Assembly: GCF_004367745.1 (NCBI RefSeq)
Contig: NZ_CP037993.1
Span: 62,001 to 126,000, forward strand
Source: Herbaspirillum huttiense
Lineage (GTDB): Bacteria; Pseudomonadota; Gammaproteobacteria; Burkholderiales; Burkholderiaceae_D
Direction of reading: 5' to 3'
Length of the DNA stretch: 64,000 nt
The position numbers and the translations under genes were made by a program. Below the pieces are notes generated by a model that searched no databases, had not been told where the DNA came from, and saw nothing but the letters and a program-made list of their open reading frames with translations. Shown one piece after another: positions 21,893 to 30,715 of the stretch (the stretch's first letter is position 1; each line of letters opens with the position of its first letter).

Positions 21893-23899
21893 ATGAAACA
21901 AGATAACCAAACCGGCCTGCCGGAACTGACCCTGCGCGGGATGCTGCTGGGCGCGCTCATCACGGTGGTCTTCACCGCTTCCAACGTGTATCTCGGGCTG
22001 AAGGTCGGCCTGACCTTCTCCTCGGCGATCCCCGCTGCGGTGATCTCGATGGCGGTCTTGCGCCTGTTTTCCAATGCCAACATCCTGGAAAACAACATGG
22101 TGCAGACCCAGGCCTCGGCGGCCGGCACGCTCTCCTCCATCATCTTCATCCTGCCCGGCCTGGTGATGATGGGCCACTGGCAGGGCTTCCCCTTCCTGCA
22201 GACGCTGGGCATCTGCGCCGCCGGCGGCATGCTGGGGGTGATGTTCTCCATCCCGCTGCGCCGGGTGATGGTGGTGCAGAGCGCGCTGCCGTATCCGGAA
22301 GGCGTGGCGGCCGCGGAGATCCTGCGCGTGGGCAGCGCCGACGCCGAGGGCGGCGAGGAAACCCGGCGCGGCCTGCGTGACATCCTCTTCGGCGGCACAA
22401 TTGCAGCAGCCTTCAGCGTGATCGCCAGCGGACTGAAGCTGTTTGCCGAAAGCATCAGCCTCTGGTTCACCGCCGGTGCTTCGGTGGTCCGCCTGACCAT
22501 GGGCTTCTCGCTGGCGCTGGTGGGCGCGGGCTACATGATCGGCATTGTCTCCGGCATCGCCATCCTGATCGGCCTGGTGATCGCCTGGGGTGTGGCCGTG
22601 CCTTATCTCACCGCCGTCACCCCCCATGCGGCCGATGTCGCCCTGTCGGACTTTGCCAACGGATTGTGGAAGAGCCAGGTGCGCTTCATCGGTGCCGGCA
22701 TGATCGGCGTGGCCGCAGTGTGGACACTGGCTACCCTTTTCAAGCCCATGCTGGAAGGCGTGAAGGCCTCGCTGTCGACGCTCTCGCGCCGTCAGCAGGG
22801 CAGCACCGAGCGCACCGACCAGGATATGTCGCCGCGCTGGATCATCGTCATCAGCCTGGCCATGATTGCGCTGCTGGCGGTGGTGTTCGCGTCCTTCCTG
22901 TCCGAAGCACCGGTGTCGCCGGCGCTGTTCATCGGGCTGATCGTCTATGCGGTGGTGTTTGCCTTCATCTTCGGCTTCCTGGTGGCGGCAGCCTGCGGCT
23001 ACATGGCCGGGCTGATCGGTTCCTCCTCCAGTCCGATCTCGGGTATCGGCATCGTGGCCGTGATCCTGGTGTCGGTCCTGCTGCTGGTCTCGGGCGCGGT
23101 CGATCCGCTGCTGGCGACGCCCGAAGGCAGCAAGCTGGCCATCGCGGTGGCGCTGTTCGTCACCGCAGCCATCATTGCGGTGGCGGCCATCGCCAATGAC
23201 AACCTGCAAGACCTGAAGACCGGCCAACTGGTCGGCGCCACCCCTTGGCGCCAGCAGGTGGCGCTGCTGGTCGGTTGCGTGGTGGGTGCGCTCATCATCC
23301 CGCCGGTTCTGAATCTGCTCTACAACGCCTATGGCTTCACCGGTGCCCTGCCGCGCGCGGGCATGGATGCAGCCCAGGCCCTGGCGGCTCCGCAGGCGAC
23401 CCTGATGACGGCCATTGCCACCGGCATCTTCACCCGCGAGCTGAACTGGACCATGCTGGGCGTCGGGGTGGCACTGGGCATCGTGCTCATCGTGATCGAC
23501 TGGCTGCTGGCCCGCCGTGGCGGCGTGGCGCGCTTGCCGGTCCTGGCGGTGGGCATTGGCATCTACCTGCCGCCGATGGTCAGCAGCGCCCTGTTCCTGG
23601 GCGCGCTGCTGGGCTGGCTGATCGAACGCGCCCTGCGCCGCCGGGCGCTGGCTGCCGGTGCGGACCCGGAAGCCTATGCCGACAAGCCGCGCCAGCGCGG
23701 CATCCTGGTGGCCTCAGGCCTGATCGTGGGGGAAAGCCTGGTGGGTGTGCTGCTGGCCGCCATCATCGGCTTTACCGGCAAGGATGCGCCGCTGGCCGTG
23801 GTGTCGGGGGCGTTTGAATCGACCGGGCAGTGGCTGGGCCTGGTTGCGCTGGTGCTGGTGCTGATCGCGTTTGCGCGCCGCATCCTGCCGTCACGTTGA
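21893..23899 (+). CDS. OPT family oligopeptide transporter
   Basis: Inner-membrane transporter (668 residues) with about 15 hydrophobic segments. The N-terminal ELTLRGMLLGALITVVFTASNVY, given here only by its ends at about residues 10-32, and the later motif ANDNLQDLKTGQLVGATP are hallmarks of the bacterial OPT (YSL/EspB-like) family. Likely imports oligopeptides or metal-chelate conjugates; substrate unknown. A single gene convergent with the lipid cluster. Confidence 0.9.
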   Translation: MKQDNQTGLPELTLRGMLLGALITVVFTASNVYLGLKVGLTFSSAIPAAVISMAVLRLFSNANILENNMVQTQASAAGTLSSIIFILPGLVMMGHWQGFPFLQTLGICAAGGMLGVMFSIPLRRVMVVQSALPYPEGVAAAEILRVGSADAEGGEETRRGLRDILFGGTIAAAFSVIASGLKLFAESISLWFTAGASVVRLTMGFSLALVGAGYMIGIVSGIAILIGLVIAWGVAVPYLTAVTPHAADVALSDFANGLWKSQVRFIGAGMIGVAAVWTLATLFKPMLEGVKASLSTLSRRQQGSTERTDQDMSPRWIIVISLAMIALLAVVFASFLSEAPVSPALFIGLIVYAVVFAFIFGFLVAAACGYMAGLIGSSSSPISGIGIVAVILVSVLLLVSGAVDPLLATPEGSKLAIAVALFVTAAIIAVAAIANDNLQDLKTGQLVGATPWRQQVALLVGCVVGALIIPPVLNLLYNAYGFTGALPRAGMDAAQALAAPQATLMTAIATGIFTRELNWTMLGVGVALGIVLIVIDWLLARRGGVARLPVLAVGIGIYLPPMVSSALFLGALLGWLIERALRRRALAAGADPEAYADKPRQRGILVASGLIVGESLVGVLLAAIIGFTGKDAPLAVVSGAFESTGQWLGLVALVLVLIAFARRILPSR

Positions 23900-23929: not shown

Positions 23930-24871
23930 TCAGTGCACCCACCAGTAGCGCAGGATATGAAAGAAAATCGGTGCCGAGAAACTGATCGAATCGACCCGGT
24001 CCAGCATGCCGCCATGGCCTTCGATCATGGCACCCCAGTCCTTGAGTCCGCGGTCACGCTTGATCGCCGACAGCACGAATCCCCCGAAGAAGCCCAGAAT
24101 GTTGATGGTCAGCGCCACCAGCGCCGCCTGCCACACATTGAAAGGCGTGATCCAGTACAGCGCTGCCCCGACGGCGGTGGACGTCAGCACGCCCCCGACC
24201 AGGCCCTCCAGCGTCTTGGAAGGTGAAATCTGCGGGGCCAGCTTGCGCTTGCCGAACAGCTTGCCCCACACGTACTGGAACACATCGCTGGACTGCACCG
24301 TCAGCACCAGGAACACGATGAGCTGCAGGTTGCGGCCTTCGAAGCCCTCGATGGGCAGCGTCAGCAGGGCCGGCACGTGCGAGATGCAGTAGACGCAGAT
24401 CATCAGCCCCCACTGCACCTTGGCCGCACGTTCCAGGAAGTGCTTGGTATCGGTGGAGAGCGAGGCCGAGATTGGCAGCAGCAGGAAGGCGTAGACCGGG
24501 ATCAGGATGGAGAACAGGCCATACCAGTCCATCCCGATGAGCACGTACTGCAGCGGCAGGAACACGAAGAAGCACCACAGCAGCGCCCGATGGTCGCCCA
24601 CGCGAGTGTAGGTGACGGAAATGAATTCACGCAGCGCCTGCAGCGAGATGAAGGCAAACAGCACGACCACGCCGGTCTTGCCGATCCAGAACGCGATGGC
24701 CAGCGCGCCGATCATCCACCACCAGGCCTTGATGCGGGCATTGAGATTGTCGATGACGCTGCTGCTGCGTCCGGCCAGCCGCCAGCGCAGCAGGCCACCG
24801 ACCGAGCTGGCCAGGGCGAGGACGGCGAACACGCCGCCAAACAGGGCGATGAGGGTATCTTGAGGAGTCAT
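23930..24871 (-). CDS. CdsA-like phosphatidate cytidylyltransferase (YnbB-like)
   Basis: Integral membrane enzyme (313 residues, about eight hydrophobic segments) of the CDP-diglyceride synthetase family, converting phosphatidic acid and CTP to CDP-diacylglycerol. The C-terminal signature is complete: SAIKRDRGLKDWG followed by GHGGMLDRVDS. Last gene of a six-gene minus-strand cluster of lipid enzymes, 16 bases after the acyltransferase. Length and neighbourhood match E. coli YnbB rather than the housekeeping CdsA, which is expected elsewhere in the genome. Confidence 0.85.
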   Translation of the reverse strand: MTPQDTLIALFGGVFAVLALASSVGGLLRWRLAGRSSSVIDNLNARIKAWWWMIGALAIAFWIGKTGVVVLFAFISLQALREFISVTYTRVGDHRALLWCFFVFLPLQYVLIGMDWYGLFSILIPVYAFLLLPISASLSTDTKHFLERAAKVQWGLMICVYCISHVPALLTLPIEGFEGRNLQLIVFLVLTVQSSDVFQYVWGKLFGKRKLAPQISPSKTLEGLVGGVLTSTAVGAALYWITPFNVWQAALVALTINILGFFGGFVLSAIKRDRGLKDWGAMIEGHGGMLDRVDSISFSAPIFFHILRYWWVH

Positions 24872-24887
24872 GGTCGTTCGTCGCGGA

Positions 24888-25508
24888 TCATTCGGCCACG
24901 GGGGCCAGGGCGAGCAGGGCCTGGCGGGTGCGGGCCAGGAACTGTTCCTTGCTTTCGTCGGGGCGCAGCATCAAGGGCTCGCCGAAGCTGAGGGTGCAGA
25001 GCAGCGGCAGCGGCACCAGATGGCCTTTGGGCATGGCCCGGCCGAGGTTTTCGATCCATACCGGCACCAGTTCCACTTCGGGATGCGCGCAGGCCAGGTG
25101 ATACAGCCCGCTCTTGAAGGGCAGCAGGCCCTCGTCCAGGTTGCGTGTGCCTTCCGGGAACAGGATCAGCGATTCGCCCCCCGCCAGCACCTGGCCCATC
25201 ACGCCGATGGGATCGGCGCTGCGGCCGACCTGGCGGTCCACCAGCACGCCCCGGAACACCCGATTGATCACATAGCGCCGCACGGCACTGCTGAGCCAGT
25301 AGTCCGAGCCGGCCACCGGCCGGGTGCGCTTGCGCATGGCGCGCGGCAGCATGCTCCAGACCAGCACGAAATCACCGTGGCTGCGGTGGTTGGGATAGTA
25401 GACACGCAGCTTGCCGGGATCGGGCGCGGCAAACCAGCGGGCACGCACGCCCGTGAGGACGCGGGCGAAGGTGCAGATGGCGGAGGCGAAGAGGCGGTCG
25501 ATCAGCAT
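24888..25508 (-). CDS. Lysophospholipid (1-acylglycerol-3-phosphate) acyltransferase, PlsC-like
   Basis: Membrane-associated acyltransferase (206 residues). The catalytic HX4D motif is NHRSHGD at about residues 40-46, and the glycerol-phosphate-binding motif FPEGTR lies near 120. It would acylate a lysophospholipid to give the phosphatidic acid used by the adjacent CdsA-like enzyme. It lies between an unknown membrane protein and the CdsA-like gene with gaps of about 20 bases. Confidence 0.85.
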   Translation of the reverse strand: MLIDRLFASAICTFARVLTGVRARWFAAPDPGKLRVYYPNHRSHGDFVLVWSMLPRAMRKRTRPVAGSDYWLSSAVRRYVINRVFRGVLVDRQVGRSADPIGVMGQVLAGGESLILFPEGTRNLDEGLLPFKSGLYHLACAHPEVELVPVWIENLGRAMPKGHLVPLPLLCTLSFGEPLMLRPDESKEQFLARTRQALLALAPVAE

Positions 25509-25528
25509 ACAAATTCAGTTTTCAAGGA

Positions 25529-26059
25529 TCAGGAAAGGAACAGTAACGCCAGGGTGACCACCCAGGCCACCACCTGCAAAGCCAGGTATCGGACCTGATT
25601 CTTCACCAGGCGGCGTACCCCGGCGATGCGTTGCGCCAGCGGGCGCGGCGCCGCACCGGCTTTGGGCCCAAGACCGCTGTCTGCGAGGGCCAGGTCAAAG
25701 GCAGCCAGATCGTCCTGCGGTGGATTTCCCTGGTGCCAGCGGCGCGCCCATGAGGTGAAGATGGGGACATCGAAGGCGCAGCGCAGCGCGAAACTGCATT
25801 CGGCGATCCCGAACACGATGGACAGCGCCAGCGCAGCCCAGACTGCAGGGCCGCCTGGATGCAAGACCAGCAAGACCAGCGCGCAGAGGCTGAGCAAGCG
25901 GCTGGTGTTGTCCAGCGGACGGCTCACGGCCAGGATTGCCAGGGCAATGTCGGCCTGGTGGGCTGCCTGCTGCGCAGCTGGGGCGTTTTCAGGCGGGAGG
26001 CCTTGATGAGCGGCATCGTTGGCGGCATCGCTGCCGGATCCTTGGCGCAGGTCAGACAT
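25529..26059 (-). CDS. Unknown membrane protein in the ynb-like lipid cluster
   Basis: 176 residues, family not recognised. The first ~35 residues are polar and alanine/glutamine rich. Two hydrophobic stretches follow near residues 55-92, then a polar loop with ARRWHQGNPPQDDLAAFD, and a final hydrophobic segment at 158-175. The start overlaps the end of the YnbD-like gene by 8 bases and the stop is 20 bases before plsC, so it is translated as part of the cluster. It could be an accessory or scaffold subunit for the membrane enzymes on either side; no catalytic motif is visible. Confidence 0.75.
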   Translation of the reverse strand: MSDLRQGSGSDAANDAAHQGLPPENAPAAQQAAHQADIALAILAVSRPLDNTSRLLSLCALVLLVLHPGGPAVWAALALSIVFGIAECSFALRCAFDVPIFTSWARRWHQGNPPQDDLAAFDLALADSGLGPKAGAAPRPLAQRIAGVRRLVKNQVRYLALQVVAWVVTLALLFLS

Positions 26060-27410
26060 GGCGTTCTCCCTTCAGCAACTGCTGCTCGACCTCCCGCAGG
26101 CGTTCCCGCAGCGCGGCGTTGATGACCACCGTGGGGCGGCGTTCGGCCAATAGCGCAAGAGCAGAGTCCATGTCGGGGCAGCGTCCGCTCAAGAACAGCC
26201 AGGTTGCCACTGCAGCAGCGCTGCGCGAATAGCCCAGCGCACAGGCCACCAGCACGGGGCCATGGCTGCGCAGCGATTCGATGCTGCGAGCGGCTGCCAG
26301 CAATTGATCGGCGTCGGGGGCGACCAGGTCCAGCCAGGCATGGCCGGCATAAGCCCACGGACCGCGCGGGGCGGGCAGTTCGGCGCAGAGGTCGCACAGG
26401 GCGGCGAACGGACCGGCGTGCATGTCGACGGTATTCGGAAGCCGGCCCAGCCAGACATCTCCGGTGATGGCGTCAGGCTGCGGACGGCGGCGGGTCCACA
26501 GGCGGGCATTGATCCAGGCACCCAGTGCGTGGGGTGCCAGCAACCAGGCAGCGGCCAGCGACCGGCGGCCGTCGTGCTTCTGGAAACCGGCGGCACCGGC
26601 ATGGGCGTAATTCCAAGCCACGATGGCCAGCGACAAGGCCAGCCAGCCCAGTGGGGCGGCCAAGGCGCGCACGGAGATTGCCAGCGCCAGTGCCAGCAAG
26701 GCTCCCAGCGCGTAGGCCAGCGCCAGACGCATGCGGCGCGCACTGCGCTGGCCGCTGCGACGCAGCGGCGTACCCCCCTCATCCGGCCACAGCCACAGGC
26801 AGAACAAGCCCAGCATGGCACCGGTCGGGATATCGATGAAGTGATGCTGCCAGGTCGTCAGTACCGACAGGCCGATCAGCAGCGCCCAGCCGTGGATGAC
26901 CAGCTGCCAGAACCAGTGCGTGCGCAGCCGGGCGAACTGGACCCAGATCAGCACCAGCAGTGCGATATGCAGCGAGGGGGCCTGGTTGAAGGGCAGGTCG
27001 AAGGCCGCCAATGAGGCGAAGAGCGCGCCAAACAGTCCGTCGGTGGCCGGCCGCACGAAGGCAAAGCGCAGCGGAAAGGCCAGGAAGCAGGCCACCGCGA
27101 TCAGCTGCGTCGTCAGTAGCCGCAGCGCGTGGCGATCGGTCTCGCGCGGGGTGCGGCAGCACAGGAAGGAAAATCCGTAGAGCAGGTCGATGGACCAATA
27201 GGGCAGGATGGTCCAGGGCAGGAAGGGAATATGACGCTCCCAGCCATAGAAGAAGCTGGGCACGCTGGCGCGCGCGGCGGCTGCATGGTTGGCGAAGCCA
27301 TAGCTGAGGAAGAACAGCGGCCCCAGCAACAGCAGCCAGGCCACGCCGCGCTTCCACGGCAGCGGCGTGGCCGGTGCTGCCGCGGGCAGCAGGCGGTCGG
27401 CCTGGCTCAT
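26052..27410 (-). CDS. PAP2 / dual-specificity phosphatase fusion protein (YnbD-like)
   Basis: Two-domain protein (452 residues). The N-terminal ~310 residues are polytopic, with PAP2-type motifs PSLHIALL and WQHHFIDIPTG giving the phosphatase histidines and aspartate. The C-terminal ~140 residues are a cytoplasmic dual-specificity/tyrosine-phosphatase domain with the P-loop CALGYSRS (CX5R). Such fusions could remove phosphate from a lipid phosphate head group, as PTPMT1 does for phosphatidylglycerol phosphate. Start overlaps the YnbC-like stop (ATGA). Length is close to E. coli YnbD. Confidence 0.85.
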   Translation of the reverse strand: MSQADRLLPAAAPATPLPWKRGVAWLLLLGPLFFLSYGFANHAAAARASVPSFFYGWERHIPFLPWTILPYWSIDLLYGFSFLCCRTPRETDRHALRLLTTQLIAVACFLAFPLRFAFVRPATDGLFGALFASLAAFDLPFNQAPSLHIALLVLIWVQFARLRTHWFWQLVIHGWALLIGLSVLTTWQHHFIDIPTGAMLGLFCLWLWPDEGGTPLRRSGQRSARRMRLALAYALGALLALALAISVRALAAPLGWLALSLAIVAWNYAHAGAAGFQKHDGRRSLAAAWLLAPHALGAWINARLWTRRRPQPDAITGDVWLGRLPNTVDMHAGPFAALCDLCAELPAPRGPWAYAGHAWLDLVAPDADQLLAAARSIESLRSHGPVLVACALGYSRSAAAVATWLFLSGRCPDMDSALALLAERRPTVVINAALRERLREVEQQLLKGERHV

Positions 27411-29158
27411 GCGGCCTTGCGCCGGGCCAGCGAGACGGTAAAGATGCCCCACTGGTCGATGCGCTGTTCGATCTTCTCGAATCCGGCCTCGGCCACCAGC
27501 TGGTCCATCTCGGCTTGTGTGCGGCGGCGCATGACCCAGGCCTGGCCGCCGCGATGGCTGGTCAGGGCGCGGGCGATCAGTTCCAGTTGCGGATGCCAGG
27601 GCTGGCCGGTGTAGACCAGATAGCCGCCCGGCGCGATGGCATCGGCCAGTCCGGCCAGGGAGGTGGCCACGGCGTCATTGTCCGGGAACAGTTCGTAGAG
27701 GCCGGAGACGATGCCCACCGTCGGGCGCGGCGTGACGGCGGCCAGGCTGGCGCGGTCAAAGGCGTCGCCCTGCACGAAGCGGGCGATGTCGGCCAGGCCC
27801 TTGTCGGCAATCAGCGCCGTGCCTTGCTGTACATTCAGTTCGCTGTAGTCGCGCAGCAGGATGGAGTGGGGACGCGGTCCCTGGCCCAGCGCTTCCAGCA
27901 CGTAGCGGCCATGGCCGGCGGCGATGTCGAGCACGTGCAGCGGCTGTCCTTCCGCCTGCAGGCGGGCCAGGGCCGTACGCAGCAATTCCTCTACATGCAG
28001 CTTGCGCTGGCGGATGCCTTTCCAGCCGATCGCGTCCAGATACTGGCGATCGATGGCGCGGCCCAGCGGACCGACGCCTTCGGGGGTGTTGCGGTAGACG
28101 TAGTCGAGCGTGCTGCCCGAATCAAAACCGGTGCGATGTCCGAGCGCCACGCCCTTGGAGAGCAGGCCGCCCAGCTTCATGTTGGCGCGGTAACCGGCCC
28201 AGTACATTCCCTTGGGGCTGAGAGCGGGAAGCGGCGCGGACAGCTGGCGCGACTCCTCGAAGGTCGGGCCCTGGCGGTGCGACTGGCGAAGGTCCGGACG
28301 GGCCCAGGCTTGCGAGAATTGGCGCAGGATGAATTCACGTGCCAGGTCGGTGGCGATCTTGCGGTCCTTCTCGCCGAAGGTGTCGTGATAGAAGCCGGGG
28401 AGGACGTGCTTTTCCTTCACTGGTGTGCCCAGACGTGCGAAGAAATCGTGCTGGGGGCCATGGTGCACGACCCAGTCCGCGCCGGAAATGAGCAATTGCG
28501 TGGGAATGGTGATGGCCTGGGCATCGGCGACCACGCGTTCGGCCGCTTCATACAGCGCCAGCAGGATATTCACGGAGATCGGGCGGCTGATCAGCGGATC
28601 GCTGTCGTAGGAGGCCTGGCGCTGCCGGTCGTGGGTCAGATACTTCGCCTTGACGTAGCTGTTGACGAAGAAATTGCCACGCAGCTTCTGCTGCAGGGCC
28701 AGTCCCGGACGGGCGAAGGGAACATAAAGCTTCACCTTGAAGGCGGGCGATGCCAGCACCAGGCAGCGTACGCGGGGCGCGTAGTCATGCGCCCAGGTCG
28801 AGACCAGCACCGCGCCCACGCTCTGGGCCAGCACGGCCATGTCTTCCTCGGCCACCTGCCACTGGTCGCGCAGGTGGTGGATGAAGGTTTGCACGTCCCG
28901 CACCGAGTGCGCAAAGCTCGGGGAATAGCCGCGCGGGCCGGGCGAACGGCCATGGCCGCGCGCATCCCAGGCATAGAAATCGAAATCGGAGAGGCCGAGT
29001 TCATCGACCAGATGCTCCATGCGCCCGCCGTGCTCGTGGCCGCGATGGAACATGACGACAGCGCCGCGCCGCTGCGGGCCGGTGGCCGGCCAGCGGCGAT
29101 AGAACAGGGATTGGCCGTCGTGGGTGGTGAACTGGTGTTCCTGGCAGGATCGTGTCAT
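27407..29158 (-). CDS. Bifunctional alpha/beta hydrolase - SAM methyltransferase (YnbC-like)
   Basis: 583 residues. Residues 1 to about 280 form a serine hydrolase like monoglyceride lipases: MFHRGHEHGGR oxyanion region, nucleophile in LAQSVGAVL, acid in ISGADWVVHHG and His in GFYHDTFGE. Residues about 300-583 are a class I methyltransferase with the SAM loop HVLDIAAGHGRYVLEAL. E. coli YnbC has the same two-domain build and nearly the same length. It may trim and methylate the lipid made by the cluster; the substrate is unknown. The ATG overlaps the upstream stop, and the longer frame runs into that gene. Confidence 0.88.
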   Translation of the reverse strand: MTRSCQEHQFTTHDGQSLFYRRWPATGPQRRGAVVMFHRGHEHGGRMEHLVDELGLSDFDFYAWDARGHGRSPGPRGYSPSFAHSVRDVQTFIHHLRDQWQVAEEDMAVLAQSVGAVLVSTWAHDYAPRVRCLVLASPAFKVKLYVPFARPGLALQQKLRGNFFVNSYVKAKYLTHDRQRQASYDSDPLISRPISVNILLALYEAAERVVADAQAITIPTQLLISGADWVVHHGPQHDFFARLGTPVKEKHVLPGFYHDTFGEKDRKIATDLAREFILRQFSQAWARPDLRQSHRQGPTFEESRQLSAPLPALSPKGMYWAGYRANMKLGGLLSKGVALGHRTGFDSGSTLDYVYRNTPEGVGPLGRAIDRQYLDAIGWKGIRQRKLHVEELLRTALARLQAEGQPLHVLDIAAGHGRYVLEALGQGPRPHSILLRDYSELNVQQGTALIADKGLADIARFVQGDAFDRASLAAVTPRPTVGIVSGLYELFPDNDAVATSLAGLADAIAPGGYLVYTGQPWHPQLELIARALTSHRGGQAWVMRRRTQAEMDQLVAEAGFEKIEQRIDQWGIFTVSLARRKAA

Positions 29159-29727
29159 GGGTGGGAGGCGGCGCGCAGGCCGCTGCGGATGCGGTTGACG
29201 ATATTGAGGAGGATGGCGGCGACAGCCAGCGGCAGCGCCCAGAAGATCCAGCCCGGGAGGCTGCCGGCCAGGCCCAGCCACAGGCCCAGCGCGCCGAACA
29301 GGAAGGCGCGGTCGCTCTTGCCCATGGGGCCGTCGTACTGGCGTGGCGCACCGACCATGGGGCCGAGCGCCCCGGTCATCTCCGACACCGCCGACAGGAA
29401 GATCACCCCGCCCACGCTGGCCCAGCCAAACGGGGCCACCAGCGCAAAGGGCAGGTACAGGGCGGCATCGGAGACGACGTCGGTCAGCTCGTTGAGATAG
29501 GCCCCCAGCGCCGACTGCTGGCCGAATTCACGCGCCAGCATGCCATCGACGGCATTGAAGGCCATGCGCAGGAACATCCACAGCGGCAGCAGCAGGAACA
29601 GCGCCGGCCGCTGTGGCCCGGCCACGAACAGCAGCGCGCCCAGTGCCAGCGAGACCAGCATGGCCAGCACGGTGACCGCATTGGCCGTCACGCCGGCCTC
29701 GGCCAGGGCGCGCACCATCGGCCGCAA
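29155..29727 (-). CDS. CDP-alcohol phosphatidyltransferase-like protein (YnbA-like), start probably frameshifted
   Basis: Membrane enzyme of the CDP-alcohol phosphatidyltransferase fold, about 190 residues and six hydrophobic segments. The family motif is present but altered: NAVDGMLAR then eight residues, then GAYLNELTD. Asn stands at the first and third metal-binding Asp positions; I recall the same in E. coli YnbA, so it looks like a subfamily trait. The conserved N-terminus (NQLKPRFQALLRP) is encoded upstream but out of frame with the nearest ATG (29768-29770): one extra A at 29756-29757 separates them. As drawn, translation would start at TTG 29727 or ATG 29718. First gene of the cluster. 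Confidence 0.75.
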   Translation of the reverse strand: MRPMVRALAEAGVTANAVTVLAMLVSLALGALLFVAGPQRPALFLLLPLWMFLRMAFNAVDGMLAREFGQQSALGAYLNELTDVVSDAALYLPFALVAPFGWASVGGVIFLSAVSEMTGALGPMVGAPRQYDGPMGKSDRAFLFGALGLWLGLAGSLPGWIFWALPLAVAAILLNIVNRIRSGLRAASHP

Positions 29728-29770
29728 GAGCGCCTGAAAGCGGGGTTTGAGTTGATTAGATGCTGATCAT

Positions 29771-30085: not shown

Positions 30086-30715
30086 TCAGCGGCGCTGGAT
30101 CAGCATATGGACGGCCAGTCCGGCCAGCACGCTACCCATCAGCCAGCGCTGCAGGCGTTGCCAGTGTGGACGGCCAGCCAGCAGGGCCGAGATGGAAGCC
30201 GCAGAGAAGGTGATCACGGCGTTCATGCTGACGCCGACCACGATCTGCGTCAGACCCAGGGCGAAGGACTGGAGAAGTACGCTCCCGTGTTCGGGCTGGA
30301 TGAATTGCGGTAGCAGCGACAGATACATCACGGCGATCTTGGGATTGAGCAGGCTGGTCAGCAGACCCATGCTGAAGAGTTTGCGGGGGCTGTCCGGGGG
30401 CAGGGTGCGGAGGGCAAACGGCGATCGGCCGCCCGGCTTGAGGGCTTGCCAGGCCAGGTAGAGCAGGTAGAGCGCTCCCGCCAGGCGCAGCGCGTCGTAG
30501 GCCAGGGGCAGGGTCATCAGCAGGGCGCTGATGCCCAGCGCGGTACAGAGCATGTAGAACACCAGCCCCAGCGCGATTCCGGCCAGCGAGATCAACCCGG
30601 CCTTGCGGCCCTGGCAGACCGAACGCGAGACCAGATAAAGCATGTTGGGGCCGGGCGTGAGCACCATGCCCAGGCAGAGGGCGGCGAAGGCCAGCAGGGT
30701 GGAGACAGTGGGCAT
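30086..30715 (-). CDS. LysE/RhtB family amino-acid exporter
   Basis: Inner-membrane exporter (209 residues, about six hydrophobic segments). The family signature GMVLTPGPNMLYL is at residues 16-28 and the second conserved region SLLNPKIAVMYLSLLPQF near 120-137. Shine-Dalgarno GAGGAT precedes the ATG. Likely exports an amino acid or homoserine-lactone-like compound; substrate not determinable. Last intact core gene before the island boundary. Confidence 0.9.
   Translation of the reverse strand: MPTVSTLLAFAALCLGMVLTPGPNMLYLVSRSVCQGRKAGLISLAGIALGLVFYMLCTALGISALLMTLPLAYDALRLAGALYLLYLAWQALKPGGRSPFALRTLPPDSPRKLFSMGLLTSLLNPKIAVMYLSLLPQFIQPEHGSVLLQSFALGLTQIVVGVSMNAVITFSAASISALLAGRPHWQRLQRWLMGSVLAGLAVHMLIQRR

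Follow-up and report, generated by a model that had tools for sequence, protein, structure and literature searches.

Do the six lipid-enzyme genes that stand together in Herbaspirillum huttiense form a pathway of their own, and if so, what would it make? The window, meaning the whole 64,000-nucleotide stretch of DNA that was analysed (contig NZ_CP037993.1, positions 62,001 to 126,000), carries six successive ORFs on its minus strand at 23930-29770. A preliminary description had read these as a complete ynbABCD-like cluster with an added acyltransferase, in which an alcohol phosphate is transferred to CDP-diacylglycerol (CDP-DAG) and the phosphate is then removed.

Gene content of the locus and probable damage to gene A

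Genes are lettered A (CDP-alcohol phosphatidyltransferase), C (hydrolase-methyltransferase), D (PAP2-dual-specificity phosphatase, DSP), E (small membrane protein), P (PlsC-type acyltransferase) and B (CDP-DAG synthase). The features of the locus are:

29155..29770, minus strand: gene A, YnbA-like CDP-alcohol phosphatidyltransferase, Asn variant (PF01066, 32.3 bits, cut-off 22)
27407..29158, minus strand: gene C, YnbC-like, fusion of a hydrolase resembling monoacylglycerol lipases with a class I SAM methyltransferase (PF12146, 236 bits; PF12147, 516 bits)
26052..27410, minus strand: gene D, YnbD-like, fusion of a PAP2 and a DSP domain (PF00782, 37.5 bits, cut-off 33.5)
25529..26059, minus strand: gene E, helical, probably membrane protein (co-occurrence with D; predicted model)
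24888..25508, minus strand: gene P, PlsC-family acyltransferase (PF01553, 58.8 bits, cut-off 23)
23930..24871, minus strand: gene B, YnbB-like, CDP-DAG synthase paralogue (PF01148, 224.7 bits, cut-off 24)
21893..23899, plus strand: left flank, putative oligopeptide-transporter-like membrane protein, by eye
30086..30715, minus strand: right flank, putative LysE-like, by eye

The reading of six overlapping or abutting genes was borne out by the ORFs and their tight junctions. This included 4-base overlaps (ATGA) at both A/C and C/D, an 8-base overlap at D/E and gaps of 20 bases at E/P and 16 bases at P/B. Matches above the curated Pfam cut-offs comprised CDP-OH_P_transf, Hydrolase_4 with Methyltransf_20, DSPc, Acyltransferase and CTP_transf_1. 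Motifs had been described as visible for each gene, which holds for A, B, C, P and the DSP half of D, but the PAP2 half of the window protein scored 23.8 bits against a cut-off of 27.2 and E had no match in Pfam or NCBIfam.

The description of the cluster as complete fails in this genome because gene A is frameshifted. The start first chosen for A (ATG at 29770) runs into a TAA stop at 29758-29756, and codon 5 holds one extra base relative to five same-genus copies (L099-L103), which read on through the conserved start. In the open frame past the stop, the first ATG, GTG or TTG is the TTG at 29727, and starting there loses conserved N-terminal residues. As this frame is otherwise intact, with 96% identity to the nearest copy over the aligned part, the one-base change is either recent or an assembly error. 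Gene A in this genome is thus probably broken near its start, through a real mutation or an assembly error, and the frameshift probably impairs the pathway here. A Variovorax locus (L043), in which A is split over two frames, represents a second, independent damaged A. Elsewhere in the window (32001-64000), GC content drops from ~0.65 to ~0.49 at 32 kb and is then mixed (0.49-0.65) to the window end; the drop suggests acquired DNA adjoining the module.

Inheritance of the module and its A-B-P core

The module was found in 6/34 same-genus genomes. In the five other carriers it adjoins the same left-hand, oligopeptide-transporter-like gene. In six non-carriers the right-hand flank comes within about 15-220 bases of this gene, and in two of them (L250, L251) that flank starts at the LysE-like gene itself. 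With the left flank joined directly to the right flank in the non-carriers, the cassette is evidently present or absent as a block.

Conserved co-occurrence of all six genes across genomes had been put forward as a check on the preliminary description; we ran this survey, and the genes do co-occur. Scanning genome contigs with C gave at least 485 relatives, of which the best 80 were kept, a set biased to close relatives of C. Together with plasmid, E. coli and further genome loci, these made up 121 C loci, some of which stop at a contig end. All six genes were present at 106/121 loci and followed the order A-C-D-E-P-B on one strand at 99/121, whilst rearranged loci kept the genes together (b-p-A-C-D-E, P-B-A-C-D-E, A-B-P-C-D-E). 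C without A was seen in L105 and L107.

To offset the bias of that set, 398 genomes drawn from the phylum were surveyed as well, the four draws being taken as the same genomes. C occurred in 27 of these, A in 37 (E<=1e-25), E in 26 (E<=0.001) and D in 43 (E<=1e-20; the match spanned almost the full profile in 26 and a single domain in 17). Every C carrier also had A (27/27), and full-length D and E were confined to the same 26 genomes, all of them C carriers. Among the 26 carriers fetched, 22 had all six genes within the fetched stretch; the others were G263 (A-C-P-B, with D-E on another stretch about 42 kb off), G354 (A and C only), and G103 and G312 (without B and P within the fetched stretch). 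Protein distances of A, B, C, D and P correlated at 0.85-0.93 across 83 loci, values uncorrected for shared host ancestry.

Single-linkage clustering of flanking ORFs (>=110 aa) gave no recurrent seventh gene that was both close and general. The widest flank cluster, ABC-transporter ATPase-like, covered 7 taxon labels and lay a median of 4.2 kb away. Simple patterns of known regulators showed no enrichment over shuffles in 118 upstream stretches, and no description of the six-gene module was found in the open-access PMC literature. Operons of Shinella, Variovorax, Pseudomonas and Zoogloea hold the same six genes, usually in the same order, and are annotated as separate lipid enzymes; unlike in the window, A is intact in these operons, and in Shinella it is turned round. 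The cluster is a real, widespread and co-inherited lipid module. It is best explained as a horizontally moving operon, gained, lost and rearranged almost as a unit.

A occurred without C in ten genomes of the 398-genome draw. Eight of these held A-B-P triads without C, D and E, and the remaining two had truncated A and B (L240) and a lone divergent A (L243). A midpoint-rooted tree was inferred from joined A and B proteins of 91 loci, after 30 Pseudomonas loci had been dropped at random. Five triads formed a group with L104 and E. coli ynb (support 1.0, with weak inner nodes of 0.29-0.42), one more triad and a copy from an E. coli plasmid sat by E. coli, and two triads fell among six-gene Pseudomonas copies. 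Given this placement, P counts among the core genes with A and B, its absence from E. coli K-12 is most likely a loss, and C-D-E can go together, the two Pseudomonas-placed triads suggesting loss of C-D-E as a block. The acyltransferase is therefore not an addition to a four-gene operon: it stands in the core where C, D and E are missing, and K-12 appears reduced while other members of its clade have P. Triad neighbours had no shared partner among 20 proteins scanned. One Pseudomonas-family triad lies close to a TOTE-type primase-helicase gene (PF22548; L235:4905-7286). A separate observation was an E. coli IncF conjugative plasmid (L017:5827-9967) that carries A-B-P-C and a D cut after ~90 codons.

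The proposed equivalence with E. coli K-12 ynbABCD holds in so far as homologues of A, B, C and D stand together there in one operon, with identities to the window proteins of 59% (C), 44% (A) and 40% (D). Gene set and order differ: K-12 has A-B-C-D, without the P and E found in the window, and its ynb genes branch with the A-B-P triads, away from the A-C-D-E-P-B copies. Nor was it quite right that ynbABCD has no established function. According to the available excerpts of the papers cited here by PMC identifier, YnbB is a CdsA paralogue able to feed synthesis of the MPIase precursor (PMC6362211, PMC7018664), and a review describes CDP-DAG production by YnbB in vitro (PMC7018664). In the same excerpts, deletion of ynbB in E. 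coli gave no lipid defect (PMC6362211, PMC7018664). For the other genes, the excerpts describe an activation of ynbA by BglJ-RcsB, given in a paper citing another (PMC12871917), a former annotation of ynbA as cholinephosphotransferase that was later removed (PMC3781023), and entries in gene lists only for ynbD (PMC3855560) and ynbC (PMC13313352).

The active site of A and its partner enzymes

CDP-alcohol phosphotransferases are reported to hold two metal ions through four Asp (PMC6506517). We examined the corresponding motif, D1xxD2GxxAR...G...D3xxxD4, counting one copy per locus. Although A passes the PF01066 family cut-off, it does not carry the four metal Asp. Asn replaced both Asp 1 and Asp 3 in 119/119 loci having A, the broken copy L043 among them, and in 9/10 further copies, giving 128/129 in total; E. 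coli YnbA likewise has Asn at both positions. In the single exception, L243, Asp 1 is Ala, Asp 3 is Asn, and AV stands in place of AR. This lone divergent A (L243:9742-11063) adjoins a cytidylyltransferase-like gene, a hint of a CDP-alcohol donor in a distant relative. In background CDP-alcohol phosphotransferases (30 top matches, 40 hand-picked lower-scoring ones and two from the window genome), the Asp were kept in 72/72, 63 fitting the strict motif and the other nine having AK for AR.

The remainder of the site is retained in A, namely Asp 2, Asp 4, AR, both motif Gly and, by alignment, the phosphate-site Arg. Besides the two Asp changed to Asn, the metal site of the YnbA family has a conserved Glu beside the second Asn and an extra Asp one turn on. 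The residue following Asp 4, reported always to be K/R (PMC6506517), was never K/R in the 119 copies of A; the broken copy has W and the others V, I, L, M or A. In human CEPT1, changing two signature Asp to Ala is reported nearly to abolish activity (PMC10156783), the motif positions of these two residues being our own assignment. As A is missing two of the four metal-binding Asp, and Asp-to-Ala CEPT1 is nearly inactive, A may not be an ordinary transferase. No description of the Asn pair was found in the open-access PMC literature.

Catalytic residues were retained in B, C, D and P in alignments of homologues. C kept its Ser-Asp-His and SAM-site residues in 94-95 of 95 sequences and was closest to monoacylglycerol lipases (E 1.1e-17) and lysophospholipase L2; no description of the function of PF12147 was found in the open-access PMC literature. 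HX4D and FPEGTR catalytic residues of P were present in 87/87, and the signature Lys and Asp positions of B in 88-90 of 90. B shares PF01148 and the conserved signature with CdsA and YnbB, and differs in being a second, module-linked copy beside the housekeeping one, a second CTP_transf_1 gene being found elsewhere in the window genome.

The PAP2 half of D, below the cut-off in the window protein, matched in 46/51 homologues at E<=0.01, and its His-His-Asp was present in 89/89. The Cys and Arg of the DSP CX5R motif occurred in 88/89 and 87/89, respectively, the remainder being gaps. The predicted model of D (pLDDT 93.4) matched solved PTPs over its DSP part, and the 50 PDB matches displayed concerned mostly the phosphatase domain. 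From the helices of this model and loop charges read by eye, the PAP2 site would lie outside and the phosphatase inside. The transmembrane and DSP part also matched NF009025, which we take to be a lipid-kinase-type fusion, in 51/51. Since NF009025 covers the same part, the membrane and phosphatase half of D is common to another protein family. Proteins of 540-570 aa (in genomes G075, G201, G334 and others) match D only in this part. E gave a predicted model of pLDDT 91.9, with no PDB match to its fold at E<=0.001. An anti-phage defence role was rejected; five of the proteins had no PADLOC match and C matched mad2 weakly (E 1.9e-06), in its methyltransferase part only.

A candidate phospholipid pathway and its alternatives

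The preliminary reading of the locus as a lipid route stands as regards one co-inherited lipid-enzyme unit, for which a CDP-DAG-based route is the simplest reading of the gene set. A dedicated CDP-DAG-based phospholipid pathway is, in our estimate, somewhat better than even (roughly 0.6). For A, C, D, E and P we infer reactions, acceptor, topology and product as follows. P would acylate a lysophosphatidate-type acceptor, and B would convert the phosphatidate to a private CDP-DAG pool, the sole step of the scheme with published biochemical support, through YnbB (PMC7018664). A, in its Asn variant, would transfer the phosphatidyl group to an acceptor alcohol. As no head-group gene recurs by the module, this acceptor would be a common metabolite, most likely a small phosphorylated housekeeping one such as glycerol phosphate. 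The DSP domain of D would then strip the head-group phosphate on the cytoplasmic side, and C would methylate the head group and trim or remodel an acyl chain. On the periplasmic side, the product would be acted on by the PAP2 domain of D, which may work together with E. That all tailoring steps follow in this full order is unlikely.

What did not survive from the preliminary description was the transfer of an alcohol phosphate and removal of the phosphate as ordinary chemistry. In its DSP fold and its probable PAP2 fold, D resembles phosphatidylglycerophosphate (PGP) phosphatases, of the PTPMT1 type, which we take to be the DSP-fold form, or of the PgpB type, and PGP would be the most straightforward substrate for the phosphatase step. 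A is without two metal Asp, and E. coli YnbD, in the available excerpt, did not replace the PGP or C55-PP (undecaprenyl-pyrophosphate) phosphatases (PMC7413402).

The altered site of A bears on two of the other readings. Were A, within the same fold, a regulator without catalytic activity or a hydrolase of CDP-DAG, the operon would tune the CDP-DAG pool and make no lipid. The Asn at two metal-ligand positions would fit this, but the strictness with which the rest of the site is kept is unusual in a dead enzyme, and we consider such a role very unlikely. An inositol lipid, with A as phosphatidylinositol-phosphate synthase and D as its phosphatase, draws on the best NCBIfam matches, which in 50/50 A members include archaetidylinositol-phosphate and phosphatidylinositol-phosphate synthases, and on the best PDB match of A, an M. 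tuberculosis enzyme. The nearest known enzyme is M. tuberculosis PgsA1, a phosphatidylinositol-phosphate synthase, with which A shares the fold family, the DGxxAR...G...D core and the extra Asp one turn past Asp 4. A differs from it in the Asn at Asp 1 and Asp 3 and the absence of K/R past Asp 4, and scores far under the curated cut-offs of both synthase families (63.4 versus 180, 47.9 versus 170 bits); TIGR00473 (pssA) likewise matches 50/50 A members. The inositol-phosphate synthase itself (PF01658) was absent from 31/35 carriers scanned, one of which is only 68% complete, with the window genome (G000) among the 31, and from the E. coli control. With these low scores, the missing synthase and no K/R past Asp 4, a de novo inositol lipid was rejected as highly improbable.

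Two further readings start from the partner enzymes. The operon could remodel or salvage phospholipids, C deacylating, P reacylating, and B and A returning the product to the CDP-DAG-derived pool, with no new lipid made. The lipase kinship of C and the PlsC type of P are in keeping with this, but remodelling needs neither a fused methyltransferase nor D, and A-B-P stands without C in eight genomes, which leaves it a rather poor prospect. Alternatively, B could be the committed enzyme of a glycolipid route to diacylglycerol-pyrophosphate-sugar lipids, for example the MPIase precursor GlcNAc-PP-DAG. Overproduction of YnbB is reported to raise or restore MPIase and not bulk phospholipid (PMC6362211, PMC7018664), but deletion of ynbB left MPIase unchanged in the excerpt available (PMC6362211), glycosyltransferases and other sugar genes are not recurrent neighbours of the module, and A, C and D are left unexplained; we judge this route quite improbable.

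CDP-DAG-dependent phospholipid synthesis with a noteworthy transferase is thus the best reading of the module. More specifically, and tentatively, with the odds somewhat against it, the YnbA family may be a separate branch of CDP-alcohol phosphotransferases whose rebuilt metal site transfers the phosphatidyl group through a changed chemistry of metal or acceptor. Together with the private CDP-DAG synthase and the acyltransferase, it would yield a phospholipid new to Proteobacteria, methylated by C and dephosphorylated by D-E, and the MPIase activity of YnbB would be a side activity.

If true, this would mean that E. coli K-12 and many Pseudomonas possess the genes for a membrane lipid that nobody has found, and that its key enzyme functions with fewer metal ligands than its family is believed to require. 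Natural material for comparative lipidomics already exists in the A-B-P triads, the six-gene loci and the clean empty sites, which also offer YnbB a meaning other than that of an MPIase backup.
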